A stretch of DNA of 44,673 nucleotides from a virus. The notes below the pieces were generated by a model that was not told where the DNA came from, did not search any database, and worked only from the letters and a program-made list of their open reading frames with translations. The stretch covers positions 1 to 44,673 of IMG/VR virus record IMGVR_UViG_3300043425_000408; one strand, written 5' to 3'. Positions 5,336-33,689 of the stretch are shown here, in pieces (the first letter of the stretch is position 1; each line of letters starts with the position of its first letter). A program made the position numbers and the translations under genes.

Positions 5336-5923
5336 ATGATCATTATTGATGACCTGTTGACGAAAGATCAGCAAGATTTGATAGAGACGACGGCACTCCG
5401 AATACCATGGTTCTATCAAGACAATACTTGTGACTTCTCTTACATACCTAACTATCCTCAACAGATAGAAGGCGTAAAAGAGACTCCGTTCTTTGTTAAC
5501 ATGCTATATGATGAATTTCAATCACAATCCGATTACTCTATATACTTTACACCAATTGTGAGAGTTCTAGAACAACGGCTGAAACGGCCTTTCATGAAAC
5601 GTCTGTTTCGTATGAAGGCCAACATGTATCTACAGCAACCTAACTATCCGGATGGTTGCTTTCACACTCCGCATGTGGACGTGTATGACGAAAAGACAGA
5701 TACGATTGGAGAGGGTGAGATTTTTCTATACTATGTGGACGCCAGCGATGGACCTACGTATATGTTCAACGAGAGATTTCCATCGGCCAGCGTAACCAAG
5801 ACTGCCTGGGTGATTCCGGAGAAGGGTAAGGGTGTTCTATTTGATCTTCAAACTCAACATGCTTCCTCACCACCAAGATTCCATGAGAGACGGATTACTT
5901 TAAACTTCGTATTCACTAAATAG
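5336..5923 (+). CDS. 2-oxoglutarate/Fe(II)-dependent oxygenase
   Basis: A 195-residue protein with the iron triad of the 2OG oxygenases: HxD at H113-D115 (TPHVDVYD) and a distal His at H175 (TQHASS), followed by R186 (HERRITLN) expected to bind 2-oxoglutarate. It is paralogous to the gene at 21647: both share an N-terminal 'LLxxxxQ' start, a FRMKANMY/WRIKANLY block, the EKGK(G/S)VLF strand and the RITLNFVF end. The acceptor substrate is unknown; phage members of this group are usually proposed to hydroxylate proteins or nucleic acid. Starts 3 bases after the QueG-like gene. A late-type promoter motif overlaps its end. Confidence 0.85.
   Translation: MIIIDDLLTKDQQDLIETTALRIPWFYQDNTCDFSYIPNYPQQIEGVKETPFFVNMLYDEFQSQSDYSIYFTPIVRVLEQRLKRPFMKRLFRMKANMYLQQPNYPDGCFHTPHVDVYDEKTDTIGEGEIFLYYVDASDGPTYMFNERFPSASVTKTAWVIPEKGKGVLFDLQTQHASSPPRFHERRITLNFVFTK
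5914..5922 (+). promoter_or_regulatory. late-type promoter motif with 5' hairpin, holin-like gene
   Basis: CACTAAATA (T4 late-like) ends at 5922. Five bases further a small hairpin starts (GTCC 5928-5931, loop AATTCC, GGAC 5938-5941), close to the expected transcript start. The lysis gene at 5960 follows, which fits late timing. Confidence 0.5.
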
Positions 5924-8138: not shown

Positions 8139-10681
8139 TGAATAGATTTTATACTAATGTTGAGGTATGGGGCGGCAAGATCCTATACCGTGGTGTTCAG
8201 GATGGCCGTCGGGTTAATCAAAGAATTGATTATAACCCGACGCTATTCGTGCATTCCGATAAGCCAACCAAATACAAGACCATTCACGGACAATATGTTG
8301 GACCTGTTAAGCAAGGTTCAATCCGTGAGGCTCGTGACTTTATCAAGCAGTATGAAGGCGTTGAAAGTTTCAAGATTTATGGCAACAATCGTTATCAGTA
8401 TTGTTTCATTGCTGACGAGTTCCCTGGCCAGATTGATTGGAACATCAATGACATTAATGTTGCCAACATCGATATTGAAACGGGTTCTGACAATGGCTTT
8501 CCTGAACCTGACGATGCCAATGAACCTCTAATAGCCATCACAGTTCACATGAATAACATGTTCACTACATTCGGTTGTGGTGACTATGATAACACTCGTG
8601 ACGATGTGATCTATTACAAATGTTCGGATGAGTTTGACCTCGTTCGTAAGTTTGTTGGCTGGTGGCAATCTAACACACCTGACGTTGTGACTGGCTGGAA
8701 TATTGAAGCGTTCGATATCCCTTACATGGTCAACCGTATCATCAAGCTATTTGGTGATAGTGAAGCTAAGAAGCTATCACCATGGAATGTTATATCTCCA
8801 CGACTCGTTGACGTTGGTATGAAGAAGGTGAATACTTATGGTATTCTTGGTGTACCTCTACTTGATTTCATGAAGCTATACCGTTGGTATGCTCCTGATG
8901 GCAAGTCACAAGAATCCTATAAGTTGGATAATATCGGTCACGTTGAACTGGGTGAACGCAAGTTATCGTATGAGGAGTATGGCTCTCTCCATAACCTGTA
9001 TAAAGAAAACTATCAAATGTTCATTGACTATAACATCAAAGACGTTGATATCGTTCGCAGGTTGGAAGAGAAGCATAAGCTAATTGAATTGGCTCTTACT
9101 CTCTCATATGATAACAAGTGTAACTATGAGGACGTGTTTACACAAGTCCGTATGTGGGACGTTATCTGTTACAACCATCTTAAGGCAAAGAACATTGTAG
9201 TTCCACCTATTGAAAGGCATGAGAAAGATGCTGCATACGTTGGTGCTTATGTTAAAGACCCTATTGTGGGTTTTCACAATTGGGTGGCTTCTTTCGATGT
9301 TAACAGCGAGTATCCGTCTGTTATTATGGGAAGCAACATTTCTCCCGAAACCATTGTTGAAGTGGACGATTATACTGATGATATGCGTCGTCTTATCTCC
9401 GATGGGGTATCCGTTGATAAACTTCTTTGTAAGGGCATCGACACATCTTGCCTTAACGCTGACAATGTTTGCCTGACGGCTAACGGTCAGTTCTATCGCC
9501 GTGACAAGCAAGGCTTTATGCCTGAAATGATTGAGAAGATGTTTGCTGACCGCAAAATCTATAAGAAGGCTATGTTAGATGCTGAAACAAAATACGAGGT
9601 TGAGACTGACCCGCAAAAGAAAGCACAACTCAAAAAAGAGATTGCAAAGTTCAAGAACCTCCAGCTTTCTAAAAAGGTATCCCTTAACTCCCTATACGGT
9701 GCAATGGGTTCGCAGTATTTTAGGTTCTTCGACCTACGTAATGCGATTGCGGTCACGACTACGGGTCAGCTTTCCATACGGTGGATCGAAAATAGACTTA
9801 ATACATATCTCAGAAAGGTATTAAAGACAAATGAAGATTTCGTTATTGCAGTCGATACTGACTCCGTGTATCTCAACCTTGCAGAAGTGGTATATAAGAC
9901 GCTGCCTGGTGATGTTAAAGATCCTGCGAAAGCCATCCATTTCCTGGACAGAGTATGTGAAAGTAAACTGCAACCTGTTATTGATCAGGCTTGCGGAGAA
10001 CTTGGCGAATACACTAACGTCTTTCAACAAAAGATTGTCATGAAGCGTGAAGTCTTGGCAGACAAAGCAATCTGGACTGCCAAGAAACGATACATTCTAA
10101 ACGTCCATAACTCCGAGGGTGTGCAGTATGCCCAGCCAAAGAAGAAGGTTATGGGCCTTGAAATGATCAAGTCATCCACACCTACAGCATGTCGAGAGAA
10201 ACTAAGGGAATCTATTGATGTTATCTTTGGATCAGACGAAGCGGCTATTCAGTCTTTCATTGAAACTTTCCGTGGTGAATTTGAAACTCTGCCTTTGGCG
10301 GACATTTCATTTCCTCGTGGCCTCAATGCTCTCGTTAAGTGGCAAGATAAAAAGAGCCTATTTGCATCCGGATGTCCTATTCATGTTCGTGGTGCTATCT
10401 TATATAATCACCTTCTATGGAGCAATAGCCTTGTTTCTAAGTATCCGATGATTCAGACTGGTGAGAAACTTAAATACATATACTTGAAAGAGCCAAACCA
10501 TATTCAGTCAAACATCATTAGCTTCCCAGCCAGTGGTTTGCCGGAAGAGTTTGACTTACACAAGTATATCGATTATAATACACAGTTCGATAAGGCGTTC
10601 CTTGAACCATTGAAGATCATTCTCAATGCTATTGATTGGAAAGCGGAACGTGTAGCAAGTCTGGAGGATTTCTTCTCATGA
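8138..10681 (+). CDS. 43: family B DNA polymerase (T4 gp43-like)
   Basis: An 847-residue protein with both domains complete. Exonuclease: motif I DIE (D112-E114), motif II WNIEAFD (D193), motif III YNIKD (D302). Polymerase: motif A FDVNSEYPS (D387), motif B KKVSLNSLYG (near 520) and motif C DTDS (near 575). Length is close to T4 gp43 (898), and the catalytic acids are intact, so it should be a proofreading replicase. It is the first large gene of the replication block; the Sm-like gene overlaps its start and the halogenase gene overlaps its stop (ATGA). Confidence 0.97.
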   Translation: MNRFYTNVEVWGGKILYRGVQDGRRVNQRIDYNPTLFVHSDKPTKYKTIHGQYVGPVKQGSIREARDFIKQYEGVESFKIYGNNRYQYCFIADEFPGQIDWNINDINVANIDIETGSDNGFPEPDDANEPLIAITVHMNNMFTTFGCGDYDNTRDDVIYYKCSDEFDLVRKFVGWWQSNTPDVVTGWNIEAFDIPYMVNRIIKLFGDSEAKKLSPWNVISPRLVDVGMKKVNTYGILGVPLLDFMKLYRWYAPDGKSQESYKLDNIGHVELGERKLSYEEYGSLHNLYKENYQMFIDYNIKDVDIVRRLEEKHKLIELALTLSYDNKCNYEDVFTQVRMWDVICYNHLKAKNIVVPPIERHEKDAAYVGAYVKDPIVGFHNWVASFDVNSEYPSVIMGSNISPETIVEVDDYTDDMRRLISDGVSVDKLLCKGIDTSCLNADNVCLTANGQFYRRDKQGFMPEMIEKMFADRKIYKKAMLDAETKYEVETDPQKKAQLKKEIAKFKNLQLSKKVSLNSLYGAMGSQYFRFFDLRNAIAVTTTGQLSIRWIENRLNTYLRKVLKTNEDFVIAVDTDSVYLNLAEVVYKTLPGDVKDPAKAIHFLDRVCESKLQPVIDQACGELGEYTNVFQQKIVMKREVLADKAIWTAKKRYILNVHNSEGVQYAQPKKKVMGLEMIKSSTPTACREKLRESIDVIFGSDEAAIQSFIETFRGEFETLPLADISFPRGLNALVKWQDKKSLFASGCPIHVRGAILYNHLLWSNSLVSKYPMIQTGEKLKYIYLKEPNHIQSNIISFPASGLPEEFDLHKYIDYNTQFDKAFLEPLKIILNAIDWKAERVASLEDFFS

Positions 10682-12258
10682 GTAAACCAATCAATAAGAT
10701 TGTCATTGTAGGCGGTGGTTCAGCCGGTTGGATGACCGCTGCCACCCTTATACAAAGATTACCAGGACGAGAAGTGGTTCTTATTGAGGATCCCAACACC
10801 CCTACAGTGGGTGTTGGTGAATCCACTTTAGGCTTCATCAATGAATGGCTGCGTCTATTACAGATTAAAGATACTGACTTTATGAAGGCCTGTGATGCCA
10901 CTTATAAGATGTCTATTAGTTTCACTGACTTTTATAAGAAGGGCGCAGGCACATTCCATTATCCATTCGGTGGTATTGATGTTACAGGTAACAAGTATGC
11001 CAAGAATGATTGGTATCTAAAAAAGTTCCTCTATCCTAACACACCTGTATCTGACTATGCTGATTGTGTCTATCCAATCATGTCACTGGTTAATGCTAAC
11101 CGTGTTGATATCGATGCCAAGATTCCCAGCTTTCTATTTCAACGAGATGTTGCATATCATTTTGATGCTGTAAAGTTTGCTATATGGCTTCGTGACAACT
11201 ATGCCGTGCCACGAGGTGTAAAGCATATCAGAGCATTGGTCAAAGACATATTGACAAATGAAGAAGGTATTGAAAAGCTGGTACTGGACACGGGCGAGGA
11301 GATTACTGCCGATCTATTCATTGACTGTACCGGTTTCAGATCAATCCTTCTTGGTGGTGCCTTGAATGAACCATTCAATTCATATGAGGACATTCTACCA
11401 AACAACTCTGCATGGGCAGCACAGATTCCATATGATAACAAGCGTGAGGAGATTGTGCCTTACACCGATTGTTGGGCTATTGAAAATGGCTGGGTGTGGA
11501 ATACTCCACTATGGAGCCGACTTGGCACTGGTTATGTCTTTTCTGATAAGTATGTTTCCGATGAGCAAGCATTGGAAGAATTTAAGGCACACCTAAAGCG
11601 CAAGGGTAAATTGCGTGAAGATCAAAAGTTCCGCAAGATCCAGTTTAGAACAGGAATCTACAATCGTCTATGGGTTAAGAATGTTTGTGCCATTGGTCTA
11701 TCTGCTGGCTTCATCGAGCCATTAGAAAGCAACGGGCTATATTCGGTTCATATGTTCCTTGTTCGTCTGCTTCGTGCTATTGATAGAGACCAAGAAGCCC
11801 ATATGGTTTCAGAGTTTGATCGTAATAGTTTCAACTGGTCTTGTCGTTCTATGTTTGACGGCTTTGCACAGTTTGTTGCCTTACATTATTCTCTTTCATA
11901 TAGAGATGATACTGAATATTGGCGTGATGTTGGTAGAAGAAGCTATTGCGATGTTGATAAGTCTTTACATCGTGGCAATTCAAGAGATGACTCATTCATC
12001 CAGGCATTTGATGCCAAGTTCAATGTAACAAGGTTTAACAATGATGGTATGAATGCCGTGGCCACTGGTCTGCATTACTATTCTACTGACCTACATTTCA
12101 TTCATTCGGCTAATGACGCAGGAGTAAATCTGGCAGAGGAGTTTGAAGAAGTAACCAAGAACTTAAACACCAAGAAAGAACTATGGGACTTTTTAGCGTC
12201 CAAGTGTCCAACTGTATATGACTTTACCAAAGAAAGGATCTATCATGGCGAAGAATAA
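10678..12258 (+). CDS. flavin-dependent tryptophan halogenase-like protein
   Basis: A 526-residue protein starting MSKPINKIVIVGGGSAGWMT: the FAD dinucleotide motif GGGSAGW (12-18). Further family marks are GVGEST (45-50), the Lys of the ATYK block at K77 (position of catalytic Lys79 in PrnA), the halogenase signature WxWxxP read as GWVWNTP, and IEPLESNG with the expected Glu/Ser. ATG 10678 is chosen for GGAGG upstream and the ATGA overlap with the polymerase. Such halogenases chlorinate or brominate an indole or related ring with reduced FAD and O2. Members are known in T4-like marine phages, with unknown substrates. The position between polymerase and UvsX is notable. Confidence 0.9.
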   Translation: MSKPINKIVIVGGGSAGWMTAATLIQRLPGREVVLIEDPNTPTVGVGESTLGFINEWLRLLQIKDTDFMKACDATYKMSISFTDFYKKGAGTFHYPFGGIDVTGNKYAKNDWYLKKFLYPNTPVSDYADCVYPIMSLVNANRVDIDAKIPSFLFQRDVAYHFDAVKFAIWLRDNYAVPRGVKHIRALVKDILTNEEGIEKLVLDTGEEITADLFIDCTGFRSILLGGALNEPFNSYEDILPNNSAWAAQIPYDNKREEIVPYTDCWAIENGWVWNTPLWSRLGTGYVFSDKYVSDEQALEEFKAHLKRKGKLREDQKFRKIQFRTGIYNRLWVKNVCAIGLSAGFIEPLESNGLYSVHMFLVRLLRAIDRDQEAHMVSEFDRNSFNWSCRSMFDGFAQFVALHYSLSYRDDTEYWRDVGRRSYCDVDKSLHRGNSRDDSFIQAFDAKFNVTRFNNDGMNAVATGLHYYSTDLHFIHSANDAGVNLAEEFEEVTKNLNTKKELWDFLASKCPTVYDFTKERIYHGEE

Positions 12259-18998: not shown

Positions 18999-19027
18999 TT
19001 GACATTCCTTTCCGAATGTGCTATTAT
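18999..19027 (+). promoter_or_regulatory. sigma70-like promoter, copy 1 of a near-identical pair
   Basis: TTGACA (18999-19004), 17-base spacer, TATTAT (19022-19027), then TAGACATAATG. The stretch from the spacer end to the transcript start is nearly identical to the promoter at 22274. Confidence 0.85.
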
Positions 19028-19052
19028 TAGACATAATGAGAAAGGAAAAGGA

Positions 19053-19517
19053 ATGAATAAGGTTTGGATTTTTGATATTGACGGCACTCTGGCCGATAAT
19101 GAACACCGTATGCACCATCTTGAGAATGGTAAAAAGGAATGGGATGCGTTCTTTTCAAAGCAGCATTTGGATGAACCTTATCAGCCTGTGTTAGACGTTC
19201 TACATGCTTTGGCTAATGATCGGCTGGGTGATAAGGTCATTATCGTTACTGCCCGTGATGAACGTTTCCGTGAGGCTACTTTAGATTGGGTCAATAAACA
19301 TATTCCTTGGATGTCAAATGATGATGTGTATATGCGTCCGTTTGGCTTTCGTGGTGATGATGACAAGATGAAGGTTGGAATTATCAAATGGTGGCTTGAA
19401 AAGAATCCTGGTTTCCAGGTTGGTGCCATGTTTGATGATCGTCATCGTATCATCGATGCCTGCCGTGCTGAAGGTTGGTACACTTTCGAATGTAACCAGT
19501 CTCGTAAGGAGTTTTGA
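19053..19517 (+). CDS. HAD-superfamily phosphatase (PseT 3'-phosphatase-like)
   Basis: ATG 19053 is preceded by AAAGGAAAAGG. The 154-residue protein has the HAD motifs in order: DIDGTLAD (motif I, nucleophile Asp near residue 7), VTARDE (motif II, Thr), and FDDRHRIID (motif IV acids). This is the pattern of the C-terminal phosphatase of T4 polynucleotide kinase (PseT), without a kinase domain. It may remove 3'-phosphates from cleaved RNA or tRNA, which would suit its place in the tRNA array, but the substrate is inferred. Driven by the promoter at 18999. Confidence 0.85.
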   Translation: MNKVWIFDIDGTLADNEHRMHHLENGKKEWDAFFSKQHLDEPYQPVLDVLHALANDRLGDKVIIVTARDERFREATLDWVNKHIPWMSNDDVYMRPFGFRGDDDKMKVGIIKWWLEKNPGFQVGAMFDDRHRIIDACRAEGWYTFECNQSRKEF

Positions 19518-19518
19518 T

Positions 19519-19707
19519 ATGATTGACTTGACAAAAGAAGGTAAACAGTATATAGTGTTTATCAAAGATGGTAGCAATACATACCAAACTTCTTTTAGAA
19601 ACTGGGAAGATACAGAAAGTTTCATTGCTACTTGTAGAGGAGTTTCAAAGATTGTGTCAGTGGAGTCCTATGAGATTCCATTGACCGGTCTAAAGTTAAA
19701 GAGTTGA
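19519..19707 (+). CDS. small hypothetical protein (62 aa)
   Basis: ATG 19519 lies one base after the phosphatase stop, with AAGGAG upstream. The product is a strand-rich single small domain (QYIVFIKDGSNTYQ, SFRNWEDTESF). Its TGA (19705-19707) directly abuts tRNA-Ile(GAT), so tRNA processing would define the mRNA end. Function unknown. Confidence 0.65.
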   Translation: MIDLTKEGKQYIVFIKDGSNTYQTSFRNWEDTESFIATCRGVSKIVSVESYEIPLTGLKLKS

Positions 19708-19969: not shown

Positions 19970-20452
19970 ATGAATAAAGTGTTTACTACTATAGCCCTAT
20001 TCATCACCCTCACAACCTCTGCCGCCGCTGACCCATTATCCGATTTTTTCGGTGGAGTCTTTGGCGGTCAGTCTCAACCACCACAGACAGTGAAAGGAAA
20101 AAGTAGACATGGCCGCAGCGTTCAAAGCAATGATAATGACTCTTGGTTTGCTGGTAGCAGTTCTCATGGTTCTGGAGGGAGTCGCATGGTGGCTTCATTC
20201 TACGGGCACGGTGAAAGACTTTCCAGGCACACCGCTTCGGGGGCAGTTTTCAACCCTCATGGATACACCGCAGCCCATCGCACACTTCCGTTCGGCACTC
20301 ATCTAAGAGTTTGTCACCATGGATGCACCACTGTTGTTGTTAATGATCGTGGCCCTTTTGTGCGGGGTCGTAGTCTCGATCTCTCTTACGGTGCTGCTCG
20401 TGCTATCGGCATGGGAAGCACATCGTCAATCTCGGTCGAAAGACTAAACTGA
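19970..20452 (+). CDS. RlpA-like septal/peptidoglycan protein (DPBB domain)
   Basis: A 160-residue protein. A signal peptide (MNKVFTTIALFITLTTSAAA) is followed by a low-complexity linker (about 30-70) and a C-terminal double-psi beta-barrel: VASFYGHGE, TASGAVFN, AAHRTLPFGTHLRV and VVNDRGPFVRGRSLDLSYGAA. RlpA proteins are lytic transglycosylases acting on denuded glycan strands. Here the SPOR domain is missing, so it is a bare catalytic domain. It may help modify the wall for entry, superinfection control or lysis. Part of the gene is overlapped by a possible gene in another frame (20109). Confidence 0.85.
   Translation: MNKVFTTIALFITLTTSAAADPLSDFFGGVFGGQSQPPQTVKGKSRHGRSVQSNDNDSWFAGSSSHGSGGSRMVASFYGHGERLSRHTASGAVFNPHGYTAAHRTLPFGTHLRVCHHGCTTVVVNDRGPFVRGRSLDLSYGAARAIGMGSTSSISVERLN
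20109..20306 (+). CDS. possible nested gene in rlpA: small membrane protein (65 aa)
   Basis: Lies wholly inside the RlpA gene in a different frame. It has its own ATG with AAAGGAAAAA 6-15 bases upstream and encodes one strong membrane segment (IMTLGLLVAVLMVLEGVAWW) followed by a soluble tail of about 35 residues (GTVKDFPGTPLRG). It begins over the low-complexity linker of RlpA, where such overprinting costs little, and runs into the start of the barrel domain. Nested membrane genes are typical of lysis regulation. Chance hydrophobicity cannot be excluded. Confidence 0.4.
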   Translation: MAAAFKAMIMTLGLLVAVLMVLEGVAWWLHSTGTVKDFPGTPLRGQFSTLMDTPQPIAHFRSALI

Positions 20453-20878
20453 ATGAAGAAAATCCTGATCATGGGTTTGCCTGGTTCTGGTAAGACAACG
20501 TTTGCAAAAGCATTGTTAGACAAGTTAGGTGAACACAAGATATCATATGCATGGTACAATGGTGATCATGTTCGTAAGATGTATGATGATTGGGATTTTT
20601 CATTAGATGGTCGTCTCCGCCAGGCACAAAGAATGGCGGAGAAGGCCAACGTTTGTAAGAACTTAGGTATAGTTGCTGTCTCTGATTTTGTTTGTCCATC
20701 AGAATACTATCGTGACATGTATCAACCCGACATTCTTGTTTGGATGGACACTCTCGAAAAATGTGAGTATGAGGACACTAATCAGTTATTTGAAAAGCCA
20801 AGTGACTATGATTATTGTGTCACGCAGTTCTATCAAAATGCTTTTGTGATTGACGATATCATAAGAAACCTTAAATGA
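20453..20878 (+). CDS. adenylylsulfate (APS) kinase-like protein
   Basis: A 141-residue protein. P-loop GLPGSGKTT (8-16), then the APS kinase signature region NGDHVRKMYDDWDFS (D38, R41; compare LDGDNVRxGL...LGFS), a helix with DGRLRQAQRMAEKA, the strand GIVAVSDFVCPSEYYRD (compare TAFISPYxxxRD) and VWMDTLEKCEYED. All key landmarks of CysC are in order; the protein is shorter than the usual 180-200 residues and lacks the C-terminal lid. The expected product is PAPS. The next gene, a sulfotransferase, overlaps it by 4 bases (ATGA), which strongly supports the call. Confidence 0.75.
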   Translation: MKKILIMGLPGSGKTTFAKALLDKLGEHKISYAWYNGDHVRKMYDDWDFSLDGRLRQAQRMAEKANVCKNLGIVAVSDFVCPSEYYRDMYQPDILVWMDTLEKCEYEDTNQLFEKPSDYDYCVTQFYQNAFVIDDIIRNLK

Positions 20879-21660
20879 GCCAGACTATTCATTTCTATGC
20901 CGGACTCCATCGATCTGGCGGCACAGTCTTGGCAAGCATACTCTCCCAAAATCCTAAAGTATATGTAACATCTAATACTGTGTTACATGATGTCCTCTCC
21001 GTTGCAAACAAAACGTGGAACGAGGCTCCTTCCGTAATCACCCATCCTATGCCAGAGCAACTTGCTAATATGAACAGGGGTATAATTGAGTCGATGTGGA
21101 GTCATCGACCAGAACCTATCATCATTGACCGCAATAGAAACTGGTCACATTGTATGCCTGAAACAAGTAAGTGGTTTGGTAAAGATATCAAAGTTATTGC
21201 CTCTATAAGGGATATCCCTGGCATTATGGCAAGTTGGGTCACTCTATACAAAAGAGAAAAGAAAGACCACTCAAAAGCGGCTATTGAACATTTTGCTTTC
21301 AAGATGTGGAATCTATACACCAAAGAGTATGTGGATTCTTTCGTAAAGATGAAACGTGAAGCTGGTGATAGAGTCCACTTTTTTAGCTATGATGACATTG
21401 TATCAAACCCAAGATATCACCTCTCCCACATAGAACACTTTTTAGGTATACCACACTTTGATTATGACTTAGACAACATACATGGTGACTTTCAGGATTC
21501 AAACATCATACCAGAAGGCTTCGAAGGCCTTCACCGTATTAGACCTAAGTATGAGAAGGTGTCTATACCACCAGAAGAAGAATTAGGTCCAAAACTATAC
21601 AAGAAGTTCTTAGAGTTAGACGAACATTTCAAAAGCGAGTTACATCATGGAAATCATTAG
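20875..21660 (+). CDS. sulfotransferase
   Basis: A 261-residue protein. The 5'-phosphosulfate loop is FYAGLHRSGGTVLASIL (R13-T17 of the RSGGT turn) and the 3'-phosphate site is KVIASIRDIPGIMASW (R112, S120), the two defining PAPS-binding elements of sulfotransferases. It starts on the stop of the APS kinase gene and its last 14 bases overlap a 2OG oxygenase gene, so the three form a single translational unit. The acceptor is unknown; candidates are host surface glycans, a phage protein or a metabolite. No signal peptide, so it acts in the cytoplasm. Confidence 0.85.
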   Translation: MSQTIHFYAGLHRSGGTVLASILSQNPKVYVTSNTVLHDVLSVANKTWNEAPSVITHPMPEQLANMNRGIIESMWSHRPEPIIIDRNRNWSHCMPETSKWFGKDIKVIASIRDIPGIMASWVTLYKREKKDHSKAAIEHFAFKMWNLYTKEYVDSFVKMKREAGDRVHFFSYDDIVSNPRYHLSHIEHFLGIPHFDYDLDNIHGDFQDSNIIPEGFEGLHRIRPKYEKVSIPPEEELGPKLYKKFLELDEHFKSELHHGNH

Positions 21661-22255
21661 CAACCTTCTATCAAGAGAAAAACAGAATGAAATCGAGAGT
21701 GAGTTTCTAAACGGGAGTTTTCCTTGGTACTATAACTCCGTTGCCACTTATGATCAGTTTAATGACCATCGAACTTTAAACACACCGTTCTTTGGTCATA
21801 TGTTCTTTATCAATAACGAGATTGTTTCAAGTCATTACTATCCAAAAGTGGTTCAACCAATCGTTGAAGCCCTTGAACGCTATAAGGGCAAAAGATTCCA
21901 GAATCGTATCTGGCGTATCAAAGCCAATCTATACACAAAAGATGGTTCTTATCCTGAGGACTTTCACCATCCACCGCATATCGATAATGGTGATGAGAAC
22001 TTTAGAGGTGAGACTTTCCTCTACTTTGTGAATGATGCTGATGGTGATACCTTTATGTTCAATGAGCATTATGATTATGTGCATAAGAGATATGGACCTG
22101 AGAATTGGAATGGTAACTTTACCAACCAGCTACGTATCACCGCCGAGAAGGGTAAGTCGGTATTGTTTCCTTTGACCCAGTGCCACACCTCTTCCGTTCC
22201 GAGAAGTGGCGGTCCTCGTATCACCCTTAACTTCGTTTTCGGTGAGTATTACTAA
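21647..22255 (+). CDS. 2-oxoglutarate/Fe(II)-dependent oxygenase (sulfation cassette)
   Basis: A 202-residue paralogue of the oxygenase at 5336. Iron ligands H111 and D113 (PPHIDNGDE), H180 (TQCHTSS), 2OG-binding R191 (GGPRITLNFVF). The gene starts 14 bases before the sulfotransferase stop, which ties it to sulfation. It could hydroxylate the acceptor to create the hydroxyl that is then sulfated, or process the sulfated product; both are inference. Some 2OG enzymes also act on sulfonates and sulfate esters, so the reverse role is possible. Confidence 0.85.
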   Translation: MEIISNLLSREKQNEIESEFLNGSFPWYYNSVATYDQFNDHRTLNTPFFGHMFFINNEIVSSHYYPKVVQPIVEALERYKGKRFQNRIWRIKANLYTKDGSYPEDFHHPPHIDNGDENFRGETFLYFVNDADGDTFMFNEHYDYVHKRYGPENWNGNFTNQLRITAEKGKSVLFPLTQCHTSSVPRSGGPRITLNFVFGEYY

Positions 22256-22273
22256 GGCATAGATAAATATTGA

Positions 22274-22302
22274 TTGACATTCCTTTTCCAGTGTGCTATT
22301 AT
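22274..22302 (+). promoter_or_regulatory. sigma70-like promoter, copy 2 of a near-identical pair
   Basis: TTGACA (22274-22279), 17-base spacer, TATTAT (22297-22302), followed by TAGACATAATG as at 18999. A GATAAATA motif lies just upstream (22262-22269). Confidence 0.85.
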
Positions 22303-22330
22303 TAGACATAATGTGAGAGGAGATACGGAA

Positions 22331-22600
22331 ATGGTTACCAAGACTGTTTATCGGGAAGTCGCCGTTGATGTTGATGTTGACCTGTGTGATTATGATACGG
22401 ACGAGTTGATCGAGGAAATCGAGTATCGTGATGGTGGTAACAAATGGGAAGTTGTCGATAAGGAAAACACCGAGTTTGTAGCGCCTCGTGTCTATGATGA
22501 AATCTATGAATTGTATCGGGACTATATAAGTCGCAGTCCTTCTTTCGAAGCAAACCTTAAAGACTTCTTCGAAAACTATGCTGGTTCTATCGTTCTCTGA
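22331..22600 (+). CDS. hypothetical acidic protein (89 aa)
   Basis: ATG 22331 has GAGGAG upstream. The product is acidic, with a strand of alternating Val-Asp (VAVDVDVDLCDYD) followed by DELIEEIEYRD, a pattern I associate with small phage proteins of unknown role, and a helical C-terminus. Transcribed from the 22274 promoter. Its end overlaps no downstream gene. Confidence 0.65.
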   Translation: MVTKTVYREVAVDVDVDLCDYDTDELIEEIEYRDGGNKWEVVDKENTEFVAPRVYDEIYELYRDYISRSPSFEANLKDFFENYAGSIVL

Positions 22601-22613
22601 AAGGAACACTGAA

Positions 22614-22949
22614 ATGAGAAACAAGTTTATCGCATTGGTTGCCGCTCTCGGCATTGCTTTTGCTGTTGCCACTCCCGCTAAGGCCCAGTTTTGGGGTCCT
22701 TATTACGGCGGTTATGGATACGGTTGGGGATATGGTGGCTGGGGCTACGGTGCCGCTGCTGGTCTGGCCATTGGTGCTATTGCTGGTGCCGCTATTGCTA
22801 ACCAGACATATCCTTATTATGGTGGTGGTTATTACTACGAAGGTTATGCACCTGCTGTTGCTGCACCTCGTGTATATCAGAAGAAGCAGATTATCATCCG
22901 TAACAGTCCTGGTGCTCGGGTGATCGAACAGGATGTGTTTGATTGGTGA
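22614..22949 (+). CDS. secreted Gly/Tyr-rich protein (111 aa)
   Basis: ATG 22614 follows AAAGGAAC. A signal peptide (MRNKFIALVAALGIAFAVAT, cleavage near AKA-Q) precedes a glycine/tyrosine/tryptophan-rich segment (YGGYGYGWGYGGWGYG), a small hydrophobic Ala/Gly helix (AAAGLAIGAIAGAAIA) that could insert into a membrane, and a basic tail. This layout is common in small exported proteins of alphaproteobacteria, so host origin is possible. Function unknown. Confidence 0.7.
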   Translation: MRNKFIALVAALGIAFAVATPAKAQFWGPYYGGYGYGWGYGGWGYGAAAGLAIGAIAGAAIANQTYPYYGGGYYYEGYAPAVAAPRVYQKKQIIIRNSPGARVIEQDVFDW

Positions 22950-31646: not shown

Positions 31647-33689
31647 ATGAAAAAAGTAGTATTCACATTCGGCCGTTATAATCCACCTACCAAGGGCCAC
31701 GCAGAACTAATCACATATGCGGTAAAGTATGCCCACCAGCACGGTGCGGAACATCGCATTTACACCTCCCAGTCACACGACCCAGCCAAGAATCCTCTAT
31801 CGGCTGCCCAGAAAATCAGATTCCTTCGTATGATATTCCCTGGTGTCAATTTCGTGGCCGACCGTTCAGCTATCACCGCTTTTGCTATTGCCAGAAAGCT
31901 GGCCGATGAAGGTTACGAGGATGTGACATTCGTGGTCGGTGATGACCGTGTAGCAGATTTTAGAACCCAGCTTGGTAAGTATGTCAAGCCCAAGACTGCC
32001 AAAGACTTCGATCCAAAGAAGCATTATCCATTCAAAAAGTTTCAGGTCATTTCATCTGGTGCCCGTAAGAAGGGTATTTCAGGTACAGACCTACGTGCGG
32101 CTGTTCGCAAGGGTGACTTTGCTACATTCGCCAAGGCATCCGCTGCCACTGATAAGACACTGGCCAGAAAGATATTTGATACCACCAGAGCCCAGCTAAA
32201 TGAACATATGATTAACGAGGAGATGGGTCGTAAAGAGTTTACCGATCATCTCAACTCATTCGTTGATTTTTGCTGTGGTAAACTGGGTATTGAAGGTAAG
32301 CCAACCCTCAAGTTCAAAGAGCCTGACGATCAAGGTGAGCAACCATCATTTGCTGCCTATGCACCAGGTTCCAAAGAAGTCATGGTAATGTCCAAGAACC
32401 GTCATCCAATGGATATCTTCCGTTCGGTTGCTCATGAGTTGGTACACCATAAACAGAACGAAGAAGGTCGTATTGGTAAAGATGTGGCCAAAGAAGGTGC
32501 TACTGGCTCTGATATTGAGAACGAGGCCAACTCCCGTGCCGGTGAACTAATGCGCTGGTATGGTAAAGCCAACCCACATTGCTTTGGTATGTCATATGTC
32601 AAAGAGAGCAAGGCTATCGTCATGGGCGGTGTGCCTGGTTCTGGTAAAGATAGAATCCTTAAAGAGGCTATTCTACCACACGGATTTAGAGAGATTCCTG
32701 ACTCCACATTCACCGTCGAAGATTGTACCGGTGAAAATCTGGTAGTCAATGGCACCATGTCAAATGTAGAAACCACCAGACGCATTAAGAATATTCTTGA
32801 AGGTGCTGGCTACGATACTATTATGGTGTTTGTCAATACCTCTAATGAAGTATCAAAGCAGCGTAACGAGGCTCGTGCTGAAACTGGTGGTCGTGTGATT
32901 GAGGAAGCCAGACGTTTCACCAAGTGGAAGTCAGCACAAGATAACCTTGATCGTTTTGATGAGATGTTTGGATCAGTCATCGTGGTTCAGAATGACCTCA
33001 ATCTAAACGAGTCGGTTGATGTTATTCAAAAGACCCATGAGAAGCTAATCGAGTTTGTCTCCGAAGATATCCGTAAGTTTGTTCTATCACCTACCGATAA
33101 ACAGTTTGAGCGTATGTTGGAAGGTTATTCTGACTTTGGTCCGCAACCCAAGAACAATCCGGTTGGTGGTGCTGGTAACTGGGGCACCTCTAAACTTACC
33201 GATCGATATAAGAACGATACACCAGGCCAGTTCCCTGGCGGCAATATGCCTATGGGTTACTTTCAGCAAAAGAAGCCAAAGGTCAAGGTATTCGGAAATC
33301 TACCCAAGTTTGGTGACAGACTTGGTGCTACCTATACCTCTGCCAAGAATCCATCATTCGTTGGTGATATCACCAGTGATCAGAATGTATTCTTGCCAAG
33401 TGAACCAATGTCCAAGTGGTCAGCTATTGACCGTTGGATGATGAAAGAAGAAACTCGCAAGAGATTCAAAGCAAAGTATGGAAAACTTGCTGAACAAAAG
33501 ATACAAGAGACCGCAGAGAAACTACGCAATGAAGGTTTGTGGGATGCCTCCGCATCATCTGGATTTACAGGTGCTACACCAAATGCTGGTAATGCATCTG
33601 ACGATGGAAGACCTGATATAAACGCAGAGTTTGAAAAGATGGCTATTATGAAGCCTAAGAAAAAGCTAAATACCAAGAATCAATCCTAA
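31647..33689 (+). CDS. three-domain fusion: nucleotidyltransferase + metallopeptidase-like + P-loop kinase
   Basis: A 680-residue protein. Domain 1 (about 1-175): cytidylyltransferase-type, with FTFGRYNPPTKGHAELI (T15-x-G17-H18) and the C-terminal GISGTDLRAAV (ISxTxxR). Domain 2 (about 195-315): VAHELVHHKQ, an HExxH zinc motif at H263-H267, with ENEANSR (E293) as likely third ligand. Domain 3 (about 320-450): P-loop kinase with VMGGVPGSGKDRI (327-334). The last 200 residues are Pro/Gly-rich with no motif. NadR-type enzymes pair domain 1 and a kinase, but an intervening metallopeptidase is unusual. Related single-domain genes occur near head genes of T4-like phages. The cellular role is unknown. 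Exact late promoter upstream. Confidence 0.75.
   Translation: MKKVVFTFGRYNPPTKGHAELITYAVKYAHQHGAEHRIYTSQSHDPAKNPLSAAQKIRFLRMIFPGVNFVADRSAITAFAIARKLADEGYEDVTFVVGDDRVADFRTQLGKYVKPKTAKDFDPKKHYPFKKFQVISSGARKKGISGTDLRAAVRKGDFATFAKASAATDKTLARKIFDTTRAQLNEHMINEEMGRKEFTDHLNSFVDFCCGKLGIEGKPTLKFKEPDDQGEQPSFAAYAPGSKEVMVMSKNRHPMDIFRSVAHELVHHKQNEEGRIGKDVAKEGATGSDIENEANSRAGELMRWYGKANPHCFGMSYVKESKAIVMGGVPGSGKDRILKEAILPHGFREIPDSTFTVEDCTGENLVVNGTMSNVETTRRIKNILEGAGYDTIMVFVNTSNEVSKQRNEARAETGGRVIEEARRFTKWKSAQDNLDRFDEMFGSVIVVQNDLNLNESVDVIQKTHEKLIEFVSEDIRKFVLSPTDKQFERMLEGYSDFGPQPKNNPVGGAGNWGTSKLTDRYKNDTPGQFPGGNMPMGYFQQKKPKVKVFGNLPKFGDRLGATYTSAKNPSFVGDITSDQNVFLPSEPMSKWSAIDRWMMKEETRKRFKAKYGKLAEQKIQETAEKLRNEGLWDASASSGFTGATPNAGNASDDGRPDINAEFEKMAIMKPKKKLNTKNQS

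Follow-up and report, generated by a model that had tools for sequence, protein, structure and literature searches.

Organization of the locus

The window, that is the entire stretch of DNA analysed here, corresponds to a viral record 44,673 bases long. It contains three overlapping open frames on the + strand, which we call K, S and O. K and S overlap by 4 bases and S and O by 14 bases, and these overlaps, like the coordinates of the frames, confirm what a preliminary description of this DNA had reported. That description had also taken the three genes to form a unit of their own. The overlaps uphold their joining, but the gene count needs correction because a fourth gene, encoding an RlpA-like protein, abuts K: its stop codon TGA immediately precedes the ATG of K, and the unit thus comprises four genes in the order RlpA-K-S-O. 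The features of the locus are:

19528-19556, + strand: sigma-70-like promoter TTGACA-17-TATAGT (consensus scan, 11/12 matches), a sequence match that does not by itself establish function
19970-20452, + strand: RlpA-like (DPBB_1) protein (Pfam DPBB_1, 6e-19) with an N-terminal signal-peptide-like stretch
20453-20878, + strand: K, a short single-domain APS-kinase-family protein of 141 aa (Pfam PF01583, 1.7e-13; fold; residues)
20875-21660, + strand: S, a PAPS-dependent-type sulfotransferase of 261 aa (Pfam PF13469, 4.5e-14; motifs; fold)
21647-22255, + strand: O, an Fe(II)/2OG-dependent oxygenase-like protein of 202 aa (HxD...H...R; PF13640, 26.4 bits; phrog_274)
22274-22303, + strand: promoter-like element TTGACA-17-TATTAT (consensus scan), with a near-identical copy at 18999-19028

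The element at 19528 is the nearest strong promoter-like match that the consensus scan finds upstream of the four-gene unit, and the one at 22274, as the next such match, bounds the unit on its downstream side. The latter and its copy at 18999-19028 share TTGACATTCCTT...TGTGCTATTATT, which occurs twice in the window as against zero occurrences expected in shuffles, and the paired elements are likely to be early promoters. From this arrangement we infer joint expression of the genes of the unit. The same RlpA-K-S-O order is common to the IMG/VR contigs of the window lineage (L003 and L005-L007), and comparison with L003 reveals purifying selection on all three of K, S and O (dN/dS 0.29, 0.10 and 0.01, respectively). 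Just upstream of the unit the window encodes a stand-alone PNKP-type HAD phosphatase (18999-19517), and further away a full-length flavin-dependent tryptophan halogenase (10636-12258; Pfam 7e-104).

Relationship of K to the APS kinases

K matches the Pfam APS_kinase profile with 51.3 bits (cut-off 21.1, E 1.7e-13), and a PDB search with a profile of 36 K relatives places APS kinases first (6.5e-12). Its AlphaFold2 model (pLDDT 95.6) likewise retrieves APS kinases in 50 of the best 50 Foldseek matches, with TM scores of up to 0.86. In the CysC protein of M. tuberculosis, APS is held by Asp480, Arg483, Phe492, Arg497 and the P-loop Lys456 (PMC4373884). Alignment to 2yvu and 2pey, together with motif spacing, equates these residues with D38, R41, F49, R54 and K14 of K, all of them invariant in 36 family proteins, so that K possesses the complete APS-binding core of an Asp, two Arg, a Phe and the P-loop Lys. 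The lid of K is about 20 residues shorter than that of CysC, and in a motif alignment it is devoid of equivalents of Lys562, Arg559 and Phe576; N110 and E107 occupy the positions of Lys562 and Arg559, respectively, and Phe576 is without a counterpart. K also falls far below the cut-off of the NCBIfam apsK equivalog TIGR00455 (43.9 bits versus 138.7). By its profile, fold and active-site residues K belongs to the APS-kinase family as a divergent representative, related to CysC as the preliminary description had proposed. It resembles APS kinases in fold and phosphosulfate pocket, yet is no standard CysC, and it probably makes PAPS.

S as a sulfotransferase

S is recovered by the Pfam Sulfotransfer_3 profile with 53.7 bits (cut-off 27, E 4.5e-14). 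The PSB and PB features that define sulfotransferases (PMC11625862) are both discernible in it: the 5'-PSB loop GLHRSGGT spans residues 10-17 and the 3'-PB element extends from R112 to S120. Across 30-32 relatives G10, R13, G15, R112 and S120 never vary, and at least 90% retain S14 and T17. A Foldseek search with the fold of S returns sulfotransferases, with TPST1/2 on top (E 1e-8), and a profile search of solved structures also places tyrosylprotein sulfotransferases first. The acceptor of S is not readable from sequence. A search of genome contigs additionally yielded a single, weak relative of S, on a MAG contig.

Linkage of K and S across phages

We examined the linkage of K and S from both sides. 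In a sample of 21 non-redundant S relatives or clusters at a minimum of 38% identity, K lies within 6 kb of S in 14 and abuts it in nine, and in two more S is followed directly by a protein in which a beta-helix-like domain is fused to K. The idea that every one of the closest relatives of S has K adjoining it was abandoned as the product of a biased sample, the counts just given being those of the S-only sample. More distant S clusters have K in only 3/19 cases (p = 0.0016). Viewed from the K side, an S-family protein is found within 6 kb in half of 38 non-redundant K clusters (19/38), with many of the flanks truncated. K precedes S in the window lineage and S precedes K in the others, and abutting genes are seen in both orders. 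A control set of 44 records selected by terminase contained K in four and S in five, with S in 4/4 K carriers (Fisher p = 3.7e-5; p = 8e-4 when confined to records of more than 20 kb); the terminase profile used for the selection derives from the K/S-bearing clade, and these p-values ignore relatedness, so they serve as guides. A fifth K match in this set, of 45 residues (G004), was left out of the count. Among sequenced isolates we saw no genome with K and S together. The link between K and S is real beyond the window genome.

PAPS also has a use in assimilatory sulfate reduction, for which a PAPS reductase (PF01507, CysH) would be expected in the same phage. None was detected in the 38 K-bearing records, many of them fragments, by a search that recovered the enzyme in 14/14 control genomes. 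A sulfotransferase (PF13469) is present in 28 of these 38. Seven of the full set of 38 had been found via S, and among the smaller records some were chosen knowing that S was present. When only K-found records of more than 30 kb are considered, the sulfotransferase is present in 10/17 and the reductase in 0/17. Phages seldom carry CysH in any case (167 in 7,334 genomes; PMC10914622), and the zero count is for that reason no proof of avoidance. These data show that K is coupled to a sulfotransferase and not to a reductase, a pattern that favours sulfation over sulfate reduction as the role of phage cysC.

A probable phage sulfation pair

The variable region that harbours K and S in related T4-like phages lies between RCC1-repeat tail genes and neck/terminase genes. 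Beside the pair are genes for GT2, GT9, GT25 and GT1 glycosyltransferases, for FkbM and other methyltransferases, for a carbamoyltransferase and UDP-galactopyranose mutase, and for heptose and sugar-nucleotide functions (the labels RCC1, neck, terminase and heptose reflect our own interpretation of the sequences). Such a setting points to the decoration of a glycan or surface structure. It is one seen in the relatives; in the window, none of the proteins scanned was recognised as a glycosyltransferase.

Because K is related to CysC, and because K and S co-occur and often abut, a cassette for PAPS supply and sulfate transfer is the best supported reading of the two genes. K would convert host-made APS and ATP to PAPS, and S would then move the sulfate from PAPS onto an acceptor. 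The likeliest acceptor is a glycan or a protein that is produced in the course of infection and belongs to the tail of the virion or to the cell surface, since in the T4-like relatives the pair adjoins tail-fibre, glycosyltransferase, methyltransferase and sugar-nucleotide genes. That K and S work together in sulfation as a phage gene pair, with an acceptor of this kind, and that O acts independently of them, appears to us probable, if some way from assured. The preliminary description had likewise combined a PAPS supply with a sulfate-transfer step. The K-S part of that proposal is borne out by the profiles and by the co-occurrence of the two genes in related phages, which abut often and in either order. 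Its suggestion of a PAPS supply of the phage's own finds support for the final step only, that of K: among the window proteins scanned, none was recognisable as an ATP sulfurylase, so K would furnish only the last step to PAPS and APS must come from the host. The further suggestion, that an oxygenase makes or removes the acceptor hydroxyl, is dealt with below.

Fused relatives of K and the possibility of another substrate

While the window K has no such extension, most T4-like K proteins are extended at the C terminus by a domain of some 115 residues that bears the motifs GRxQPxHxGH and ISxTxIR (e.g. L040:6001-6837 and L008:2341-3144). It is closest to NMN adenylyltransferases (PDB profile 5e-9; NCBIfam NadM matches). 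We rejected its identification as an ATP sulfurylase, as the profile finds NMN adenylyltransferases and no ATP sulfurylase, and a single weak Pfam match (0.006) is insufficient. The fusion could be a compact PAPS synthase or an NAD enzyme. In Sanovirus it is found beside a NADAR gene, far from any sulfotransferase. In the isolate Stenotrophomonas phage Bhz60 (L085:5559-6735) a NADAR gene adjoins it, and in the isolate DLP_6 (L086:5471-7729) it follows an Fe(II) oxygenase and a phosphatase; no sulfotransferase was seen at either locus. In small phages K is located among replication genes and RNR. Close upstream of K at such loci in smaller phages is a protein of about 187 residues (L031:1580-2137, L013:1976-2536) with sulfotransferase-like motifs (IPRSGSTKY, SRQNVQNSMWS) and, for the L017 copy, no Pfam match; this is perhaps a second, hitherto unrecognised sulfotransferase paired with K. 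Another nucleotidyltransferase-kinase combination is present in the window itself, namely a protein of 680 residues (31647-33689) with a cytidylyltransferase-like domain at its N terminus as well as a zeta-toxin/AAA_33-type kinase domain.

K might accordingly be imagined as a kinase that phosphorylates some other small substrate (a sugar, a nucleotide or nicotinamide riboside) and so supplies an adenylyl- or cytidylyltransferase, with its nearness to S being due to a shared variable locus. The NadM-like fused domain, the NADAR neighbour in Sanovirus, the replication-gene setting in small phages and a lid unlike that of true APS kinases are all consistent with this. It is harder to reconcile with the invariance of both phosphosulfate-binding Arg residues and the adenine-stacking Phe, with fold neighbours that are APS kinases only, and with a gene pair that abuts in both orders and co-occurs against the control, and we deem it unlikely. 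It is mainly because the fused domain could make APS or serve NAD metabolism that we withhold higher confidence in K.

O and the case for a three-gene pathway

O scores 26.4 bits against PF13640 (2OG-FeII_Oxy_3), just short of the cut-off of 27, and a single-sequence PDB search with it gave chance matches only. Its identity as an Fe/2OG-type protein is settled by the invariance in 10 homologues of H111-x-D113, H180 and R191, that is, of the metal triad and the 2OG-binding Arg. Given the conservation of this HxD...H...R signature, we reject the label "DNA endonuclease V", attached to phrog_274 and to many cyanophage records, both for O and for its paralogue (39%) elsewhere in the window (5336-5923). 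The window encodes a further 2OG oxygenase (PF13759; 24136-24753), which is cleanly missing from L006 and L007.

The three genes would constitute one pathway if O hydroxylated the acceptor and S then sulfated it. Such a chain, which the preliminary description had envisaged, draws on the 14-base S/O overlap and on a gene order that is constant in all close relatives. It might also draw on a beta-helix-like domain with partly conserved metal-ligand motifs, which occurs near K-S or fused to K directly behind S (L108:2892-3806, L095:6776-7666). We do not call this domain a 2OG oxygenase: its first motif is not invariant and a PDB profile search matched nothing, which weakens it as a substitute for O. 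In two other fusions of this type (L073:2-1018, L074:5037-5996) the P-loop of the K domain is degenerate. O homologues are common in cyanophages (51 records), mostly in 2OG oxygenase arrays that include neither S nor K. Only in the window's own close relatives does O consistently accompany K and S, and beyond this lineage O-type genes are near S in just two other S clusters (at least 38% identity). Together with the paralogue elsewhere in the window, this leaves a three-step chain rather improbable and deprives O of the standing of a conserved partner; it is probably an independent 2OG oxygenase that shares the transcript by chance in this lineage.

Tyrosine sulfation and sulfate reduction as possible alternatives

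Since TPST1/2 are the nearest structures to S by both profile and fold, S could also be a protein-tyrosine sulfotransferase acting on a phage or host protein. Two genes downstream of it, at 22578-22949, is an ORF for a short Gly/Tyr-rich, presumably secreted protein with a signal-peptide-like start, which varies between close relatives and is a possible candidate acceptor. The catalytic Glu that follows the PSB helix in TPST aligns with S33/N34 in S and with Ser/Thr in the S family, and for this reason we do not file S as a TPST. Moreover, the base and PAPS fold of TPST are grouped with those of the sugar-acting NST and 3-OST (PMC11625862), and tyrosine as the target strikes us as doubtful. 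No sulfated, glycosylated tail fibre of a phage turned up in a literature search.

That K is an auxiliary gene of assimilatory sulfate reduction for cysteine supply, with S unrelated, is the published, unvalidated reading of phage cysC (PMC10914622, PMC9529941 and PMC12713726), but the adjacency of K to S and the prevalence of a sulfotransferase over PF01507 in K-bearing records make it very improbable here.

Comparison with known systems

Genes for phage cysC and for phage sulfotransferases are each known and have been reported separately, the former being read as assimilatory. PMC10914622 records 62 cysC genes in 7,334 freshwater phage genomes, at times highly transcribed, and PMC9529941 presents models of short viral CysC proteins. 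K is comparable to these short APS-kinase-like proteins of environmental phages, but differs in its linkage to a sulfotransferase rather than to a PAPS reductase; those sources report no sulfotransferase partner in the text available. The function of phage sulfotransferases has been called unclear (PMC10580990). The Sulfotransfer_3 (PF13469) genes of cyanophages and OM43 phages belong to the same Pfam family as S, and that of the cyanophage S-SRM01, situated near glycosyltransferase and epimerase genes, is 28% identical to it; unlike the window, these sulfotransferase-bearing isolates yielded no K.

The linkage of K to S, taken with the lack of PAPS reductase in the same records, offers a common and testable purpose for both genes. 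This speaks for sulfation as the actual role of a widespread phage "sulfur metabolism" gene, the pair being carried by a freshwater-type phage and kept by its relatives. If phages do sulfate their virions or the cell surface, this would be a modification that we did not find in the literature searched; adsorption, superinfection exclusion or the evasion of host defence would likely be affected, and the counting of viral "sulfur cycling" genes would change. A bolder generalization would hold that phage "cysC" genes are mainly sulfation genes, that tailed phages make PAPS and sulfate glycans or proteins of their own tails or of the infected cell surface, and that the K-nucleotidyltransferase fusion is an independently built compact PAPS synthase whose NMNAT-like domain makes APS; we regard this as speculative and, in its entirety, improbable.

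Among cellular enzymes, TPST1/2 are the best structural and profile relatives of S, which differs from them in that the catalytic Glu is not conserved and a Golgi membrane anchor is lacking. The cyanophage phrog_274 2OG-Fe(II) oxygenases are of the same family as O and display its HxD...H...R signature, but they reside in oxygenase arrays rather than with K or S. Animal PAPS synthases (PAPSS1/2), in which an APS kinase is joined to an ATP sulfurylase, have the same domain order as the K fusions, both combining an N-terminal APS-kinase-like domain with a C-terminal nucleotidyltransferase; ATP sulfurylase belongs to the same superfamily as the latter domain of the fusions, which displays HxGH and SxTxIR motifs. 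Unlike in PAPSS1/2, this C-terminal domain resembles NMN adenylyltransferase, and not ATP sulfurylase, in the PDB profile search.
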